24,243 nt of DNA from a virus. Location of the stretch: positions 1 to 24,243 of the IMG/VR virus record IMGVR_UViG_3300036770_004857. One strand, written 5' to 3'. Below the pieces are notes generated by a model. The model did not search any database. It was not told the origin of the DNA and was given only the letters and a program-made list of their open reading frames with translations. Below, in pieces: positions 4,383-21,200 of the stretch (the first letter of the stretch is position 1; each line of letters begins with the position of its first letter). The position numbers and the translations under genes were made by a program.

Positions 4383-5256
4383 AGCGCAACAGATAGATAC
4401 CGTGAGGAATCACGGTGCGATAAAAAAAGATAACGTAGCTCAGCCTGAGTGCTGGGCGGCATTCGCTGCAGAGTTTGCTACCGTAGAAGGTCCAGCATTT
4501 CTGCAGCCCGGTCAGTTTATACCGCTGTGGAATATTCACAGAGGTCAGTGGAAACTACAAACTCCCTTCAAACTTCATGTGACTTCTGCCTACGCTAGGG
4601 ACGGAAGATACATGGTGGTAGGAGGATCTGAAAAATTAGGATCTCACCCTAAAATTTCGGCATGGGACGCCGGAGTTCCTATGCCTGGGAAGACCGGTGA
4701 ACTGCGCAATCCAGGCGGATTGCGCACCATAGAGCTTTGCAACATACCAGCTATTATGGCTAATGGTGCAAGTTTTCAATCTAGGCGTTATCATGCAAGG
4801 ATGTTTCACGACGAGTTCGCTGAGGCCTCTTTGCATGAAGGTTGTCCTATTAGAATGATCTGTCGTTCTGATAAAGCCAACCCTAGCGGCATTCCTTTTG
4901 CTGCGCATGTCATGTATGATGTGCTTCGTGGTGACGCTACTTGCGGGTATGAGATACCCATCCCGGTGATCACATCCAATGAGGAAGAGATTATTTTGAG
5001 GGATTACCCTGAATGGGACGCAGCAATAGATGCATTTTGTGCCGAGTATAAAATTACCGAAATTGGTGTTTTGTATGCGGCACATGGCGTCGATGAGATT
5101 GAGGATAGTATCAGCAGCAAACGTCCTAATCAGGTGTTTCGCAATGCTATCATAAAAGGCGACATTGGATTCAGTACGCTGGATCCCAATCTGTACGAGC
5201 GGATGCTGCCGTTCGCTACGGGAAGTCTGGACAAGGCTTTCTTGCCAAGACTGTAG
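4354..5256 (+). CDS. Hypothetical protein, 300 aa
   Basis: Not recognised. The ATG at 4354 is preferred over the upstream TTG at 4315 because it shortens the overlap with the preceding membrane protein gene. The protein is globular in composition with several Trp, Cys and His residues (for example RRYHARMFHDEF, LHEGCPIRMIC). I see no membrane segments and no classical catalytic motif. It is the last gene before a strong terminator, so it closes the first operon of the window. Its composition is less AT-biased than that of the structural genes that follow. Confidence 0.7.
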   Translation: MIDTNTRATEAQQIDTVRNHGAIKKDNVAQPECWAAFAAEFATVEGPAFLQPGQFIPLWNIHRGQWKLQTPFKLHVTSAYARDGRYMVVGGSEKLGSHPKISAWDAGVPMPGKTGELRNPGGLRTIELCNIPAIMANGASFQSRRYHARMFHDEFAEASLHEGCPIRMICRSDKANPSGIPFAAHVMYDVLRGDATCGYEIPIPVITSNEEEIILRDYPEWDAAIDAFCAEYKITEIGVLYAAHGVDEIEDSISSKRPNQVFRNAIIKGDIGFSTLDPNLYERMLPFATGSLDKAFLPRL

Positions 5257-12699: not shown

Positions 12700-14511
12700 A
12701 TGGTTAACTATCCCGGCGACAATGACGCATTTGCAATTTGGACAGGTAAGAACCGAGTCTTTGCAGATCCCTTTCTTCTTCCCAGTAGCACAGCTATTCC
12801 GACTGAACTCCAGTCAGCTCTGGACTTCTGCTTATTCCTTTATTATTTAAATCCTCTTTATCGTCGCGCTTCGACTCGAGTAATTAGTCACTTTGTTACT
12901 GACATTGATTTTGTAGGTAAAGATGGCGACCAAGATGAAAGAGATGAGTTTAAAAACTTCCTGATTAATGACCTGGATATTTTCGGGGCATTACTTGAAG
13001 TAGGTCAGGAGTGGGCGTGTTACGGTAATGCATTCCTTAGACTCCATCTTCCTTTTGACCGTGTACTTGTTGACCATAGAGACGGTAAATATAAGGAGTA
13101 TGCGCTGCCTATGTTCGGAGCGGATGTGAAGTATGATTACAAGGCCATGAAATACGATGTGCCTGATCCTACTACCTTTGACAGACCGAAGGATAAAAGA
13201 TCTAGAGTTAAACTTGATTTCATTGACCGACCGTCTCGGGATAAGTCCCGCATCAGACTTCGTAAAATCGATCCTCGTCAGGTTGTGTTGCAGCACTCAT
13301 TTATGAGTGGTAAGCAACAAATGATTTATCGTTTTGAACCTGAGTGGGTTACTATGATTAAAAATAGTATCATGTATCAGGTTAACGAGACGCCGATGAG
13401 CATGCTCAAGGCTATTGCTCTTGAACAGGACTTTCTGTTCAATGAAGGGCAAGTATTTCATTTTAAAGCGCCTACAATTTCTGGTGTATCTAACTATGGG
13501 TGGGGACTACCAGAAACCATTGCTAACTTCAGGCATATTCACCAGTTACAGGTTCTCCGTAAGATTGATGAATCGGTAGGTTTGGATTATATGCTGCCCT
13601 TCCGTATGTTTCACCCTGTACCTTCGGCGCAGGCGAGTGATCCTATGAACTATATGCTTCTGAACCGTTGGGGCTCAGAAATCAAAGAGGTGATCAAGCG
13701 TCGTCGCCTTGATCCTTTCGCTATGCATGCCCTACCCTTCCCGGTTAGTTATCAGGAGTTTGGCGCGCAGGGTAAAAACTTAGCGCCTAAAGAACTAGTT
13801 GAGTATCATAATAATGTTCTTCTTGATTCTATGGGGTATCCTGCAGAATTATTCAAAGGTTCTTTGCAGGTTCAGCAGATTCCGACAGCTGTTCGTCTGT
13901 TTGAAAATTCATTCCATTTCGTTCACCAAGGGTTTGATAGAATTGTGAAATGGGTATCTGGTCGTATTTGTGACTACATCGGGCAGCAACGCCTGGAAAC
14001 GTCGCTTCAGCTGCCTCGCCTTGCGGACGACCTTGAGCGTCAGCGTGTTTATATGCAATTGGCTGCAGGCGCTGAAATTCCTCGCTCTATTGCTTACGGT
14101 CCCTTCGGCATCAAAGACCCTGTGGAAGCTGCTAAACAGCGTGCTCAGGAAGATATCGAAATTCAGAAGGAGCAGATGAAGCTACAGTCTGATTTTCAGA
14201 GACAGCAGCAATTGGGATCTATGGATAGTATCTTGGCGCAACAAGCCCAACAAGGTGGTGGCGGTGGAAGTTCTCCTGCGGGCATGGAAGGCGCTGCAGG
14301 AGGTGGTGACATGAACCCGCTTGACATCCAGAATAAAGCTGCTGAATTGGCGCAGCAATGGTTGCAATTGCCTGTCGGTGAACGGCAGAAGCAAATGGCA
14401 GCTGTTCGCACTTCAAATCCTAACCTGCATGCAATGGCCAAGCAAAAGATGGAAGAAATGAGATCTGAAGCTGAAAGTCAAGGTAGGCAGGCGTTATCAC
14501 AACCAATGTAA
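12700..14511 (+). CDS. Portal protein
   Basis: Dodecameric head-vertex channel for DNA packaging and connection of head to tail (family knowledge). Typical portal features: an N-terminal segment NPLYRRASTRVISHFVTDIDF, followed by an alpha/beta clip/stem region (ALLEVGQEWACYGNAFLRLHLPF), a long wing region, and FHFKAPTISGVSNYGWGLPETIANFRHIHQLQVLRKID. The C-terminal 120 residues are Gln/Gly-rich (QQAQQGGGGGSSPAGM), as is common at portal C-termini. Length is 603 aa, in the range for T4-like or larger phages (roughly 500-650). The capsid and terminase genes are not in this window and are expected outside it. Confidence 0.85.
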   Translation: MVNYPGDNDAFAIWTGKNRVFADPFLLPSSTAIPTELQSALDFCLFLYYLNPLYRRASTRVISHFVTDIDFVGKDGDQDERDEFKNFLINDLDIFGALLEVGQEWACYGNAFLRLHLPFDRVLVDHRDGKYKEYALPMFGADVKYDYKAMKYDVPDPTTFDRPKDKRSRVKLDFIDRPSRDKSRIRLRKIDPRQVVLQHSFMSGKQQMIYRFEPEWVTMIKNSIMYQVNETPMSMLKAIALEQDFLFNEGQVFHFKAPTISGVSNYGWGLPETIANFRHIHQLQVLRKIDESVGLDYMLPFRMFHPVPSAQASDPMNYMLLNRWGSEIKEVIKRRRLDPFAMHALPFPVSYQEFGAQGKNLAPKELVEYHNNVLLDSMGYPAELFKGSLQVQQIPTAVRLFENSFHFVHQGFDRIVKWVSGRICDYIGQQRLETSLQLPRLADDLERQRVYMQLAAGAEIPRSIAYGPFGIKDPVEAAKQRAQEDIEIQKEQMKLQSDFQRQQQLGSMDSILAQQAQQGGGGGSSPAGMEGAAGGGDMNPLDIQNKAAELAQQWLQLPVGERQKQMAAVRTSNPNLHAMAKQKMEEMRSEAESQGRQALSQPM

Positions 14512-14520
14512 ATAAAACAA

Positions 14521-14862
14521 ATGGAAGAAACTAAAATCGACTGGGTAGATGTAATGAATACTGTAGCTTCTGATATTAATCAGAATGCAGTTAATAAAGG
14601 GTTCTGGGACAAGGAACGCAATGATGGAGAGGCAATCGCACTTATCCATTCAGAGCTTTCTGAAGCGCTTGAGGCTCTACGTCATGGCAATCCGCCAGAT
14701 GATAAAATTAAGGAATACACTGGAGTGGAAGCTGAACTGGCTGATGCGATTATTCGTATTTGTGATTTAGCGGCAGGTAGAAAATGGCGTGTCTTTGAAG
14801 CTATGGCCGCAAAGATGCAATTCAATACTACGCGAGAAAGACTACACGGTAAAGAATTCTAG
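14521..14862 (+). CDS. MazG-like nucleotide pyrophosphohydrolase
   Basis: A 113-residue all-alpha NTP-PPase of the MazG/dUTPase-like superfamily. The metal-binding pattern is visible as HSELSEALEALRHG (E-x2-E, residues of about 43-50) and VEAELADAIIRICDLA (E-x2-D). Such phage enzymes hydrolyse (d)NTPs or alarmone-like nucleotides to NMP and PPi. Single-domain phage MazG proteins are about 90-130 aa, so the length fits. It is an odd metabolic gene directly after the portal, 9 nt downstream. A perfect 13-bp hairpin follows. Confidence 0.8.
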   Translation: MEETKIDWVDVMNTVASDINQNAVNKGFWDKERNDGEAIALIHSELSEALEALRHGNPPDDKIKEYTGVEAELADAIIRICDLAAGRKWRVFEAMAAKMQFNTTRERLHGKEF

Positions 14863-17259: not shown

Positions 17260-18600
17260 ATGGAAAAGATCGCTTTAACTCCGCGCAGCAAAGAATTAAT
17301 TAAAAATTACCTTATTGGTGGTGCCGCTCTTGGTGGTTCTGGTGCGCTGCTTACATCTCTGATTAATTATATTAACACTCTGAAACAGCAGGCTCCTGTT
17401 GATCCAGAAAAAGAAGATGATGATACCCTTTATTTAAATGTTAATAAATCGGCTAATGAAGGCGCGGGCGCTATCGATTTAACGGCAGGTGGTTTGGCTT
17501 TGACTGGCGGTCTTTTGTCTACACTTGGTACATATGCGCTAGTTCGTAAGTTGTATCAAAATATTAAGCGTCAGCAATTACAAGAGCAGCTTGATCAAGC
17601 GCAGCAGTCTTTTCTCTCCTCGGCGGAGCAAGAAGCGCAGACTAAGAAAGCTGAAGAAGCAGGCAAGCCTATGGGACTTGCAGAATTAACCTGGTCTGCC
17701 CCTGTGGCATTTGCTTTACTTAGCGCTATTGCAGCTGGTGCTCTTACTAACAAAGCTTTAGACAAGACCTTCCCGAGAGTTAAGAAGCCCAAGGATACTG
17801 CGCCTAAGAGAATTGTTATTCGCAAAACTCCTGAGCAGGAAATGGAAGAAGAAAAAATGGCCTACGATAAGGTAGCCGCCGCCGAACAGGCTGACGACGC
17901 TATGGAATTCCTAATTCATCTTTGCATGGGTAGTAAGTCTGCGGCGCAGTCAGAGCTGGTAGATATCGTTCATGCTGCTGCTCAAGGTAGAGGCCCGGAG
18001 TTTGTTACTAACGTCTTGGAATATGGTTTTGATGCGGCCATGGACACTATCAAAGGCGCATCAGAAATTGACATCACTCCTGAACAGAAACAATTAGCTA
18101 TTAGCTATTGTGTAAAGAGCGCAACATTAAATCCTGTAGTTTCCTTATTGGCGGCTGCTGAGTATAATGACATGGCTCCTAGATTTACTAAAATTGCTAG
18201 TCTGCAGAGTGATGAATGTTTAGATACTTTATTAAAGATTGCTGGTGCTATTGGTGCCCTCAACAGATCTGAAATGGTTAACTCTGTTTCAGATATTTTT
18301 GAAGTTACCAAACAAGCGAATGAAATGACGCTTGAGGAAATCCTGGCGTTAGTAAATAAAATGAAAGGTCAGGGCGCTCATACATCTGAAGAAGATGATA
18401 TTGAACAAAATGAAGATTTAAATTCTGAAGACAGTATTGACTCTAAAGATGAAAAGCAGGTAAACGACCGCAAGCCGTTTGCCAATCCAAATACTACGCC
18501 TGACATAATTGACGAATTATCTGAAGATGATGACTTGATTGATCAGGCAATGTCTGCTCCTGTTACTCCTGCCAAAGCAGTAGCAGCAGAAAACAAATGA
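17260..18600 (+). CDS. Gly/Ala-rich multi-segment membrane protein, 446 aa
   Basis: Hydrophobic blocks lie at about residues 17-37 (YLIGGAALGGSGALLTSLINY), 72-96 (AIDLTAGGLALTGGLLSTLGTYALV) and 147-165 (APVAFALLSAIAAGALT), separated by a Gln/Glu-rich coiled-coil-like segment (IKRQQLQEQLDQAQQSF). The C-terminal half is soluble and helical, ending in a very acidic tail (EEDDIEQNEDLNSEDSIDS). The family is not recognised. The layout of glycine-zipper helices plus a long soluble domain fits an internal virion or ejection protein. The stop overlaps the ATG of the DUF1064-like nuclease (ATGA). Confidence 0.7.
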   Translation: MEKIALTPRSKELIKNYLIGGAALGGSGALLTSLINYINTLKQQAPVDPEKEDDDTLYLNVNKSANEGAGAIDLTAGGLALTGGLLSTLGTYALVRKLYQNIKRQQLQEQLDQAQQSFLSSAEQEAQTKKAEEAGKPMGLAELTWSAPVAFALLSAIAAGALTNKALDKTFPRVKKPKDTAPKRIVIRKTPEQEMEEEKMAYDKVAAAEQADDAMEFLIHLCMGSKSAAQSELVDIVHAAAQGRGPEFVTNVLEYGFDAAMDTIKGASEIDITPEQKQLAISYCVKSATLNPVVSLLAAAEYNDMAPRFTKIASLQSDECLDTLLKIAGAIGALNRSEMVNSVSDIFEVTKQANEMTLEEILALVNKMKGQGAHTSEEDDIEQNEDLNSEDSIDSKDEKQVNDRKPFANPNTTPDIIDELSEDDDLIDQAMSAPVTPAKAVAAENK

Positions 18601-19067
18601 GCGTACCACGTAATAAAAACTCAGCGGCCAAGCTTCTAGACCTTATAAACAAGAGTTCTAAGCGCGGGCGTTATAAAGTTTCGCCTAAAGAAGCGCGAAC
18701 ATACGAAGGTATTGTCTTTGACTCCAAATGGGAAGCAGAGACATATAAGCTATTGTCTACCTTATTACCTGAAGACGTACATATTCATCGGCAGGTAGAT
18801 TTCCTTTTACAGGAAAAGTTTAGAGCTCCCAATGGTAAAGCTGTTCGTGAGATTCATTATTCAGCAGACTTTGTAATTACCCGGGAGAAGGAACTAAAAG
18901 AGGATGTCATTCCTAATGATGCCTTTGTCATAGATTCCAAAGGGCATATTACTGATATATTCAAAATAAAGAATAAGCTGTTTATGTATAAATATCAGAC
19001 ACTTATTCATCAGGTAAAGTCTGCCAAGGATGTGGCAGCAGTTGTTGATTTATATAAGGCGCAATAA
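18597..19067 (+). CDS. DUF1064-type PD-(D/E)XK nuclease
   Basis: The sequence follows the DUF1064 layout of phage nucleases: FDSKWEAETYKLL (Glu46 after the first helix), an RQVDFLLQEKF strand, REIHYSADFVI (Asp91), and FVIDSKGHITDIFKIKNKLF (Asp113-x-Lys115, then Lys in the next helix). This is the PD-(D/E)XK metal site expected for a structure-specific endonuclease. Members of the family are small (about 120-160 aa), matching the 156 aa here. It begins on an ATGA overlap with the membrane protein gene and is the last gene before the RNA-rich region. The substrate, for example branched DNA during packaging or recombination, is inferred. Confidence 0.75.
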   Translation: MSVPRNKNSAAKLLDLINKSSKRGRYKVSPKEARTYEGIVFDSKWEAETYKLLSTLLPEDVHIHRQVDFLLQEKFRAPNGKAVREIHYSADFVITREKELKEDVIPNDAFVIDSKGHITDIFKIKNKLFMYKYQTLIHQVKSAKDVAAVVDLYKAQ

Positions 19068-19419: not shown

Positions 19420-19788
19420 TTATTCATATCTGTCGAGGAATTGCTTGTAGGCTTGCTCTTGTGTTAACTTATTTTTATTAATTAGATTACACATTTGAGC
19501 CATTACCTTTAAAGACAGATCAGGATGATGAATTTCAGAATGACAGTTATGGCAAACAAGAACGCACTTGTTCAATTCTTTTTCTGCGTGATCTACTGGC
19601 ATTTTAATTAGGTGACTTCCAGACAGAGCAGTTCCTTTTTCGTTAATATGATGAAAAGCCAAAGCAGCTAAATTCTTTTTGTAGCTGCATATCACACACT
19701 GTCCGCCAGCCTTTTTAATGAGATTGTATTTCCTTAATAATCTCGCCACTCTATTTCTTTTAACAGAAGAAGGTCGTCTTTTAGGCAT
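19420..19788 (-). CDS. HNH endonuclease
   Basis: Likely homing-type or free-standing HNH nuclease, the only confident minus-strand gene. Motifs: CVIC (Cys31, Cys34) and CHNC (Cys79, Cys82) form a structural zinc site. LAFHHINEKG (His46-His47) and ELNKCVLVCHNCHSEIHH supply the H, N and H residues. The basic N-terminus (MPKRRPSSVKRNRVARLLRKYNLIKKAGG) is typical of the family. I prefer this ATG (19788) to the longer frame from 19875, because a minus-strand TATAAT at 19878-19883 would start transcription at about 19871, downstream of that first ATG. Next to a tRNA cluster, it may promote spread or insertion of this region. Confidence 0.8.
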   Translation of the reverse strand: MPKRRPSSVKRNRVARLLRKYNLIKKAGGQCVICSYKKNLAALAFHHINEKGTALSGSHLIKMPVDHAEKELNKCVLVCHNCHSEIHHPDLSLKVMAQMCNLINKNKLTQEQAYKQFLDRYE

Positions 19789-19872
19789 TGCATAATATAC
19801 GATATGTAATATGTGCGGCAAGTCATCTTCGGAGCGGTGTCGTTTGCGCTCTTCGACCTCGAGTGAGGTTGA

Positions 19873-19926
19873 CATGCATTATATCAAATAAGTTCTTGCG
19901 CTAAGACTGATATTGTATAATGCATG
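19873..19926. promoter_or_regulatory. Divergent promoters inside an 11-bp inverted repeat
   Basis: CATGCATTATA (19873-19883) and TATAATGCATG (19916-19926) are exact reverse complements separated by 32 nt. Each arm carries a TATAAT facing outward: one drives the HNH gene leftward, the other the tRNAs rightward. On the plus strand TTCTTG at 19893-19898 is 17 nt upstream of TATAAT, and the predicted start near 19928 lies just before tRNA-Arg at 19937. Confidence 0.6.
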
Positions 19927-19936
19927 GAATCCCTTT

Positions 19937-20011
19937 GCCCGGTTCGTTTAATGGATAGGACAAGACTCTTCTAAAGTCTTTGTGGGGGTTCGATTCCCTC
20001 ACCGGGTACCA
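19937..20011 (+). tRNA. tRNA-Arg(UCU)
   Basis: Acceptor GCCCGGT pairs with ACCGGGT (one G-U), followed by discriminator A and encoded CCA. The anticodon stem AGACT/AGTCT encloses the loop CTTCTAA, giving anticodon UCU. The T-arm has a TTCGATT loop. It would read AGA and AGG, and AGA is common in the phage genes here. It lies just after a good sigma70-type promoter. Confidence 0.95.
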
Positions 20012-20035
20012 GTTCCTTGACATCATTTAATTTTC

Positions 20036-20112
20036 TGGGTAATGGCTCAGCCTGGTAGAGCGCTTGCTTTGGGAGCAAGAAGTCGTCGGTTCGAATCCGG
20101 CTTACCCAACCA
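20036..20112 (+). tRNA. tRNA-Pro(UGG)
   Basis: Acceptor TGGGTAA/TTACCCA with A and encoded CCA. The anticodon stem CTTGC/GCAAG encloses the loop TTTGGGA, giving UGG (Pro). The D-arm GCTCAGCCTGGTAGAGC and T-loop TTCGAAT are canonical. It begins 24 nt after tRNA-Arg. Confidence 0.95.
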
Positions 20113-20117
20113 ATTTT

Positions 20118-20194
20118 GCGCTTGTAGCTCAGCGGTTAGTAGCGGGGGACTCATAATCCCTAGGTCGCAGGTTCGAATCCTGCCGGGCGCACCA
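20118..20194 (+). tRNA. tRNA with CAU anticodon (Ile2 or elongator Met)
   Basis: Acceptor GCGCTTG/CGGGCGC (two G-U) with A and encoded CCA. Anticodon stem GGGGA/TCCCT, loop CTCATAA, anticodon CAU. T-arm GCAGG/CCTGC with TTCGAAT. G1-C72 is paired, so it is not an initiator. The segment after the anticodon (CCCTAGGTCGC) recalls bacterial tRNA-Ile2, whose C34 is modified to lysidine to read AUA, but elongator Met cannot be excluded. The D-stem has one C-U mismatch. Confidence 0.85.
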
Positions 20195-20523
20195 ATTTCC
20201 GCTCAACCAGAGATGCTAGTGCCCTCGCGGAATAGGCACGTACAGCTAGCATTTCACAATAGAGTCTGCTGTGTCTTTGCACAAGCCGAGAACTAAATAC
20301 GAGCTTAGACTTTCTTGTCTGAGTTTAGATTAGTTCATAGTACAAAACTGTGCATCCGGGCAAGGGTTTCGTTCGGACGTTTTGTAGCAGCAGCTGGGAG
20401 TGGGGTAGTAGACTGCAGTCAATGACTACCTCACTCCCCTCCAATTTTCTCGGCTAGGGGACAAGAGGCTCCATGCCTCGATCAAGGGAGTAATATCCTG
20501 AGACTTACCCCAGCTGGGATTCC
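20195..20523 (+). ncRNA. Candidate structured RNA in a gene-free gap of the tRNA cluster
   Basis: 329 nt without a convincing protein gene, GC-rich and full of complementary segments. TTCCGC (20197-20202) pairs with GCGGAA (20227-20232). ATGCTA-GTGCC (20213-20223) pairs with GGCAC (20235-20239) and TAGCAT (20247-20252). The two pairings cross, as in an H-type pseudoknot. Further stems: CTAAA and CTTAGAC with GTCTGAG and TTTAG (20293-20328); TACAAAAC/GTTTTGTA with inner TCCG/CGGA (20341-20386); a 14-bp stem 20396-20409 with 20425-20438; GAGGC/GCCTC (20465-20479). It is flanked by tRNAs and probably co-transcribed. It does not match the tmRNA layout. Large phage RNAs such as GOLLD and ROOL also sit beside tRNA genes but are much longer. 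Confidence 0.55.
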
Positions 20524-20524
20524 C

Positions 20525-20611
20525 GGGCATGTGGTGTAACGGTAGCAAAGGCACAAGGTCGAAAGGCCGGTATTTACTGAGGTGTAGGTTCAACTCCTAC
20601 CATGCCCACCA
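20525..20611 (+). tRNA. tRNA-like gene without a canonical anticodon arm
   Basis: Seven-bp perfect acceptor GGGCATG/CATGCCC with A and encoded CCA, a D-arm-like GGTGTAACGGTAGCA, and a perfect T-arm GTAGG/CCTAC with TTCAACT. Between the D- and T-arms lie about 33 nt, some ten more than in a class I tRNA. I find no register giving a 5-bp stem around a 7-nt loop. The obvious fold there is GGTC-GAAA-GGCC (20557-20568), a GNRA tetraloop hairpin, followed by GGT-ATTT-ACT. It could be a degenerate tRNA, or a tRNA mimic with another role. Confidence 0.6.
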
Positions 20612-21114: not shown

Positions 21115-21200
21115 GGCCCAGTGGTGAAATGGTAGACACAACGGACTTAAAATCCGTTGCTTTAAAAGGCGTGCCGGTTCAAGTCCGGCCTGGGCTACCA
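21115..21200 (+). tRNA. tRNA-Leu(UAA)
   Basis: Acceptor GGCCCAG/CTGGGCT (one G-U) with A and encoded CCA. The anticodon stem ACGGA/TCCGT encloses CTTAAAA, giving UAA. A long class II variable arm (TGCTTTAAAAGGCGT) and T-arm GCCGG/CCGGC confirm leucine. It would read UUA, the favoured Leu codon in these AT-rich genes. Confidence 0.95.

Follow-up and report, generated by a model that had tools for sequence, protein, structure and literature searches.

The tRNA cluster and its 329-nt gap

The window analysed here is the whole of a 24,243-base record from an uncultured phage. Its tRNA cluster runs, on the + strand, from the genes of tRNA-Arg(UCU), tRNA-Pro(UGG) and a Met-type tRNA with a CAU anticodon (19937-20194), through a gap of 329 nt, a tRNA-like gene that we call J and two small ORFs, to the gene of tRNA-Leu(UAA) (21115-21200, + strand). 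These upstream and downstream members were called by both ARAGORN and Rfam, and the tRNA-Met gene (20118-20194) forms the left border of the gap. A gene for an HNH endonuclease (PHROG 2255; 19420-19875, - strand) faces the cluster; its product may be a homing endonuclease that contributes to reshuffling the cluster. We found neither a sigma-70-type promoter near the start of the cluster nor a consensus terminator.

The gap had been described, from its sequence, as a structured stretch that holds no credible protein, and both descriptions stand. Indeed, the sole ORF of at least 60 aa (20042-20296) runs across tRNA-Pro and tRNA-Met, and the homologues of unit C, which makes up the 3′ part of the gap, differ by indels, so that any reading frame there would be disrupted. 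The minimum free energy of the 329 nt is -122.5 kcal/mol, as compared with -97.5 ± 6.3 kcal/mol for shuffled sequences (z = -3.96), and none of 100 shuffles folded as well.

When the stretch was compared with Rfam at the gathering score and at E ≤ 5, the tRNA family was the only one to reach its cut-off in the window, and neither GOLLD nor ROOL was matched. This agrees with the original suggestion of a structured RNA that lies by tRNA genes and belongs to a class other than these two. For the neighbouring units in relatives, compared at E ≤ 2, the cut-off was reached only by tRNA and by one group I intron. Among the INPHARED phages, no match was found to the 329-nt stretch, to the unit named D below, or to units G plus C.

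Relatives were found in IMG/VR via a DUF1064-type protein (window 18597-19064); they are few, namely one strain identical to the window (L002) and five phages that have diverged from it (L003-L007), and the homologous sequences are IMG/VR contigs. For the portal-like protein, the matches are all remote (about 22% identity) and lie in large phages of Vibrio and Salmonella; in two of these, Vibrio phage D69 and Salmonella phage Arash, no tRNA features are listed within 12 kb.

Units A, B and C and the tRNA-like RNA J

Local alignment to the relatives splits the stretch into three units, A (20197-20257), B (about 20259-20440) and C (20447-20523), all taken on the + strand. The view that the gap represents a single 329-nt RNA class is thus not upheld, as it comprises at least three modules whose phylogenetic distributions differ among the relatives.

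Unit C is a three-helix junction RNA of 77 nt, present in one copy in each phage record that carries it. Its 12-bp closing stem P1 (20448-20459/20508-20519) is accompanied by two shorter helices, P2 (20465-20469/20475-20479) and P3 (20487-20489/20496-20498). Homologues were found in L003, L005, L006, L010, L013, L014 and L056, giving an alignment of seven distinct sequences and 85 columns. Covariation had been proposed as a check on the structure, and C passes it: compensatory double changes occur at 9 of the 20 pairs (six in P1, one in P2 and two in P3), 99.3% of the cells pair, and this covariation was reached by none of 500 shuffles. In L056, P3 is altered on both strands, from GGA/UCC to GCU/AGC. 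The alignment holds 18 G-U cells against one A-C cell, which indicates that the RNA is read from the + strand. The loop of P2 (UCCAU) and three strands, GACAA, GAUCAA and GNGACUUA, are near-invariant, and variable helices around invariant junction strands are typical of RNAs that bind a protein or a ligand via the junction. Supported by covariation, C forms a family that Rfam 15 lacks, and we are highly confident that it is a genuine structured RNA.

A self-cleaving ribozyme was considered for C and rejected, there being no match to such a family in Rfam. A pattern search for C across 84,980 bacterial and archaeal species returned 16 stretches, none of which has the closing stem and all of which were rejected as chance matches. 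A looser pattern applied to viral sequences returned 34 stretches, of which the real ones are those already known and L056 only.

Unit A (20197-20257), which is about 61 nt long and single in the aligned cluster, is predicted to fold as an H-type pseudoknot. The 6-bp stem that had been drawn near its 5′ end (S1, 20197-20202/20227-20232) is exact. An 11-bp pairing had been drawn across it, between 20213-20223 and 20235-20252; the crossing stands, but these coordinates do not. The pairing is better described as 11 contiguous pairs, two of them G-U, between 20210-20220 and 20245-20255 (S2), plus an inner UGCC/GGCA pairing of 4 bp (20220-20223/20235-20238), base 20220 being also used by S2. When stacking only was counted and loop costs were ignored, the pseudoknot energy of unit A was reached by none of 1000 shuffles of the unit, and the best pseudoknot of the whole stretch by none of 300 shuffles of the stretch.

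The only diverged homologue of A lies in L006 (12002-12066) and is 97% identical over the aligned span (20193-20257). Its four differences fall outside the nested helix and, by inspection of the alignment, also spare the crossing stem. At the named pseudoknot, covariation analysis thus finds no pair broken and no compensatory change with respect to L006: the modelled fold is compatible with the data, and covariation gives no proof of it. Patterns written for unit A matched only the window's own strain and L006; a further candidate, L078, was rejected on reading.

Unit B (20259-20440, + strand, limits approximate) is a strongly folded segment of about 180 nt (z = -5.04) that ends in a 14-bp hairpin (20396-20409/20425-20438). 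Of all the relatives, L006 included, only the identical strain L002 has it.

J (20525-20611, + strand) is a non-decoding tRNA-like RNA whose first base lies 5 nt past the closing stem of C. It matches the Rfam tRNA model with 39.8 bits over 20525-20608, with its central stretch unaligned, and is not called by ARAGORN. Like a decoding tRNA, J has an acceptor stem (20525-20531/20601-20607), a T arm (20584-20600) and an encoded CCA; unlike one, it has no anticodon arm with a 7-nt loop, and a GAAA-capped hairpin stands in that place. The acceptor stem and the T arm are kept in L006, with two compensated pairs. The L003 version of J consists only of an acceptor-plus-T-arm minihelix, a shape also taken by minimal RNase P substrates; against the mascRNA model it scored 19 bits (E = 0.34), under the cut-off of 42.5. 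Matches in plasmids were confined to the T arm of J. As L005 and a second group of phages, described below, carry C without J, J is not required for C.

Odd tRNA-like RNAs were also seen in L004 (12402-12577), L007 (11408-11540 and 13100-13222) and L005 (14430-14556). They have a GAGCG-type acceptor stem and a T arm, and long inserts replace their D and anticodon arms, the RNA of L004 still having a Leu-like anticodon arm. In L005, tRNA-Met is interrupted by an insert (12885-13708) containing a group I intron (Rfam RF00028, 13449-13665) and, on the opposite strand, an apparent HNH-type ORF.

Cassettes within and between phage groups

In L006, which lacks B, C directly follows A, and in L003 and L005 C is present and local alignment found neither A nor B. 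The clusters of the relatives contain other modules: D in L003 and L006, F in L005 and L006, G in L003 and L005, a tRNA-like module H in L005 and L007, and E, I and K, each in a single phage. Two-sequence comparisons gave six compensated pairs for D, three for G and two for J, and none for F, H and A. Because the relatives carry differing sets of modules, the tRNA cluster behaves like a shuffled array of cassettes.

A second phage group (group 2: four contigs, L010, L013, L014 and L056) also carries C, which is flanked there by small ORFs and has no tRNA cluster nearby; indeed, no tRNA lies near C in this group, L013 having one tRNA elsewhere on its stretch. A third group (L079-L081) carries unit D, 95-96% identical, beside a RecT-like gene and without tRNAs. 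In L079, D (4739-4909; same place in L080 and L081) has on either side a 15-base direct repeat, TTAATTTCTCACCCA, which is absent elsewhere on the L079-L081 stretches examined, so that the arrangement looks like an insertion. When sizeable portions of one or two genomes from each group were compared, the window group had no nucleotide match to groups 2 and 3 other than C, D and a 213-bp fragment that overlaps an ORF. The occurrence of C and D in otherwise unrelated phages argues for selected functions. Since C is shared with a phage group unrelated to that of the window, it is more likely a functional RNA that has moved between viruses than spacer DNA.

Groups 2 and 3 both carry a gene for an F5/8-type C domain protein, at 98% amino-acid identity (L097 8840-9280, L094 686-1126). 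Proteins with this domain are often involved in surface binding, and the near-identity of these two suggests that groups 2 and 3 have a common host. We also noted in group 2 (L010, L013, L014 and L056) many copies of a palindromic repeat, approximately TTTACCTAGGCCAGGCNNCCTGGCNTAGGTAAAA, with CCTAGG/CCTAAG arms; it apparently stands in most intergenic gaps and is also found after unit C.

Cassettes and tRNAs alike start after a shared A/T-rich junction, CAATTT(T)C or similar. AATT is found at 14 of 19 non-tRNA starts and at 10 of 19 tRNA starts, versus 9% of all positions in the clusters, a count that is descriptive, the boundaries of the cassettes having been set by eye on closing stems. As read from the sequences, these junctions would fit excision by tRNA-processing enzymes, and they would also fit recombination at short shared junctions.

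Known phage RNAs and possible functions

The closest known RNAs are rnaC (species 1) and rnaD (species 2) of phage T4, which are non-tRNA RNAs of 119-139 nt located beside tRNAs. A, B and C are like them in being non-tRNA RNA genes inside a phage tRNA cluster, and T4 rnaC ends in a T arm, CCGGGTTCGAATCCCGG, as do J, H and K. However, rnaC and rnaD are annotated as stable RNAs, whereas the cassettes described here are known from sequence alone. Homology of A, B, C or D to rnaC and rnaD was considered and rejected, as short-word blastn showed only 11 nt of the T arm to be shared, with H. We know of no established role for rnaC, rnaD and similar extra RNAs of phage tRNA clusters.

GOLLD and ROOL are structured RNAs of phages and prophages that are often found near tRNA islands (PMC12286853). 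Like them, the stretch is phage-encoded and lies by tRNA genes, between tRNA-Met and J. Unlike them, it does not make up one large RNA: GOLLD and ROOL are much longer, whereas the stretch has 329 nt and splits into modules. Since rnaC and rnaD share the setting of the cassettes, GOLLD and ROOL do not match, and A to D lack the sequence of rnaC and rnaD, the cassettes are relatives in kind of known phage tRNA-cluster RNAs, the family of C being new to Rfam 15.

Phage PhiTE carries pseudo-ToxI, a pseudoknot RNA that mimics an antitoxin and serves in counter-defence (PMC3475682). For A, an H-type pseudoknot is predicted that exceeds chance as judged by shuffles and that covariation does not prove; if formed, it would be a point of likeness to this RNA and to the type III antitoxins. 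A differs from ToxI, a 36-nt pseudoknot in tandem repeats, in being single and about 61 nt long. A ToxI-type antitoxin was rejected as an identity for A, the likeness being one of general shape, with no tandem repeats and no match to an antitoxin in Rfam. Phage-borne tRNAs also act in counter-defence, against defences that cut tRNAs (PMC13096335).

RNase P cuts non-tRNA transcripts at tRNA-like elements and processes phage-induced RNAs (PMC4919922). J is like the mascRNA/menRNA-type signals in that a tRNA-like element, of the kind recognised by RNase P, stands directly downstream of a non-coding RNA (PMC4919922). These signals, however, are eukaryotic, and we infer the cleavage at J.

We consider it rather probable that A, B and C are separate small RNAs in a tRNA operon that are excised and act on a host component. 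The cassettes would be co-transcribed with the tRNAs, and host tRNA-processing enzymes would cut them out at the shared A/T-rich junctions. Given that J starts so close to the closing stem of C (5 nt), an RNase P cut at J would at the same time generate the 3′ end of C; J-directed cleavage would then be one processing route for C and no requirement. The freed RNAs would then act in trans. Since the junction strands and the P2 loop are near-invariant and P1 and P3 are variable, C would most likely bind a conserved host protein or RNA.

A and C are adjacent in L006 too, with their order unchanged, and GOLLD likewise consists of a conserved 3′ part and a variable 5′ part (PMC12286853), which would suit a composite RNA of about 330 nt, that is, a small ornate RNA in which A, B and C fold together and B is an optional domain. 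We nonetheless find a composite RNA unlikely, as C occurs without A in L003, in L005 and in all group 2 phages, has a 12-bp closing stem of its own, and is preceded by its own AATTT junction, separate from the one before A.

The separate, trans-acting RNAs that we prefer have also to be weighed against units whose main use would lie in processing, spacing or stabilising the tRNA transcript, with no trans function of their own. The units do have the same junctions as the tRNAs, and J is shaped like an RNase P substrate. However, both C and D also occur in phages that have no tRNA near them, and the junction strands and the loop of C are conserved far beyond the needs of a spacer; we therefore give a role confined to the tRNA transcript little credit.

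It is also doubtful that C and the other units control genes of the phage, in the manner of sRNAs or riboswitch-like aptamers, and have no host target. While C sits between small ORFs in group 2, as a cis element could, and its P2 loop UCCAU could in principle pair with start regions reading AUGGA, its neighbour genes differ between the window group and group 2, which leaves it no common cis target; moreover, in the window group C precedes a tRNA-like RNA and not an ORF. Finally, J, H and K resemble altered tRNAs and the tRNA-Met of L005 contains a group I intron, but it is most improbable that the units are functionless leftovers, such as decayed tRNAs or remnants of introns, a reading disfavoured for C, since the compensatory changes in C and the recent transfer of D (95-96% identity) argue for selection and, apart from J, no unit matches a tRNA or intron model.

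For separate RNAs acting in trans, the role that we would favour is interference with a host component, especially a decoy or antitoxin-like action against host defence. Counter-defence is favoured because the RNAs are optional, occur in unrelated phages and lie beside tRNAs, and because the PhiTE pseudoknot RNA provides a precedent. As the sequences point to no particular host target, this proposal is built on analogy and on mobility, and we put it forward tentatively. More broadly, the cassettes may be mobile, protein-free RNAs that are exchanged among unrelated phages of the same hosts and arrayed in tRNA operons, each acting in trans to disable a host defence or other host machinery; we regard this as a speculative possibility which, if true, would make them an RNA counterpart of anti-defence gene islands. 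The extra small RNAs of phage tRNA clusters are, in these phages, modular, and the small size of C (77 nt) and A (61 nt), which allows them to be synthesised, used as bait and deleted, renders the question testable.

We also observed that a distant relative, L015, has three stretches with long closing stems just upstream of a tRNA-Met (14402-14650), with z values of -5.4, -4.9 and -2.9.
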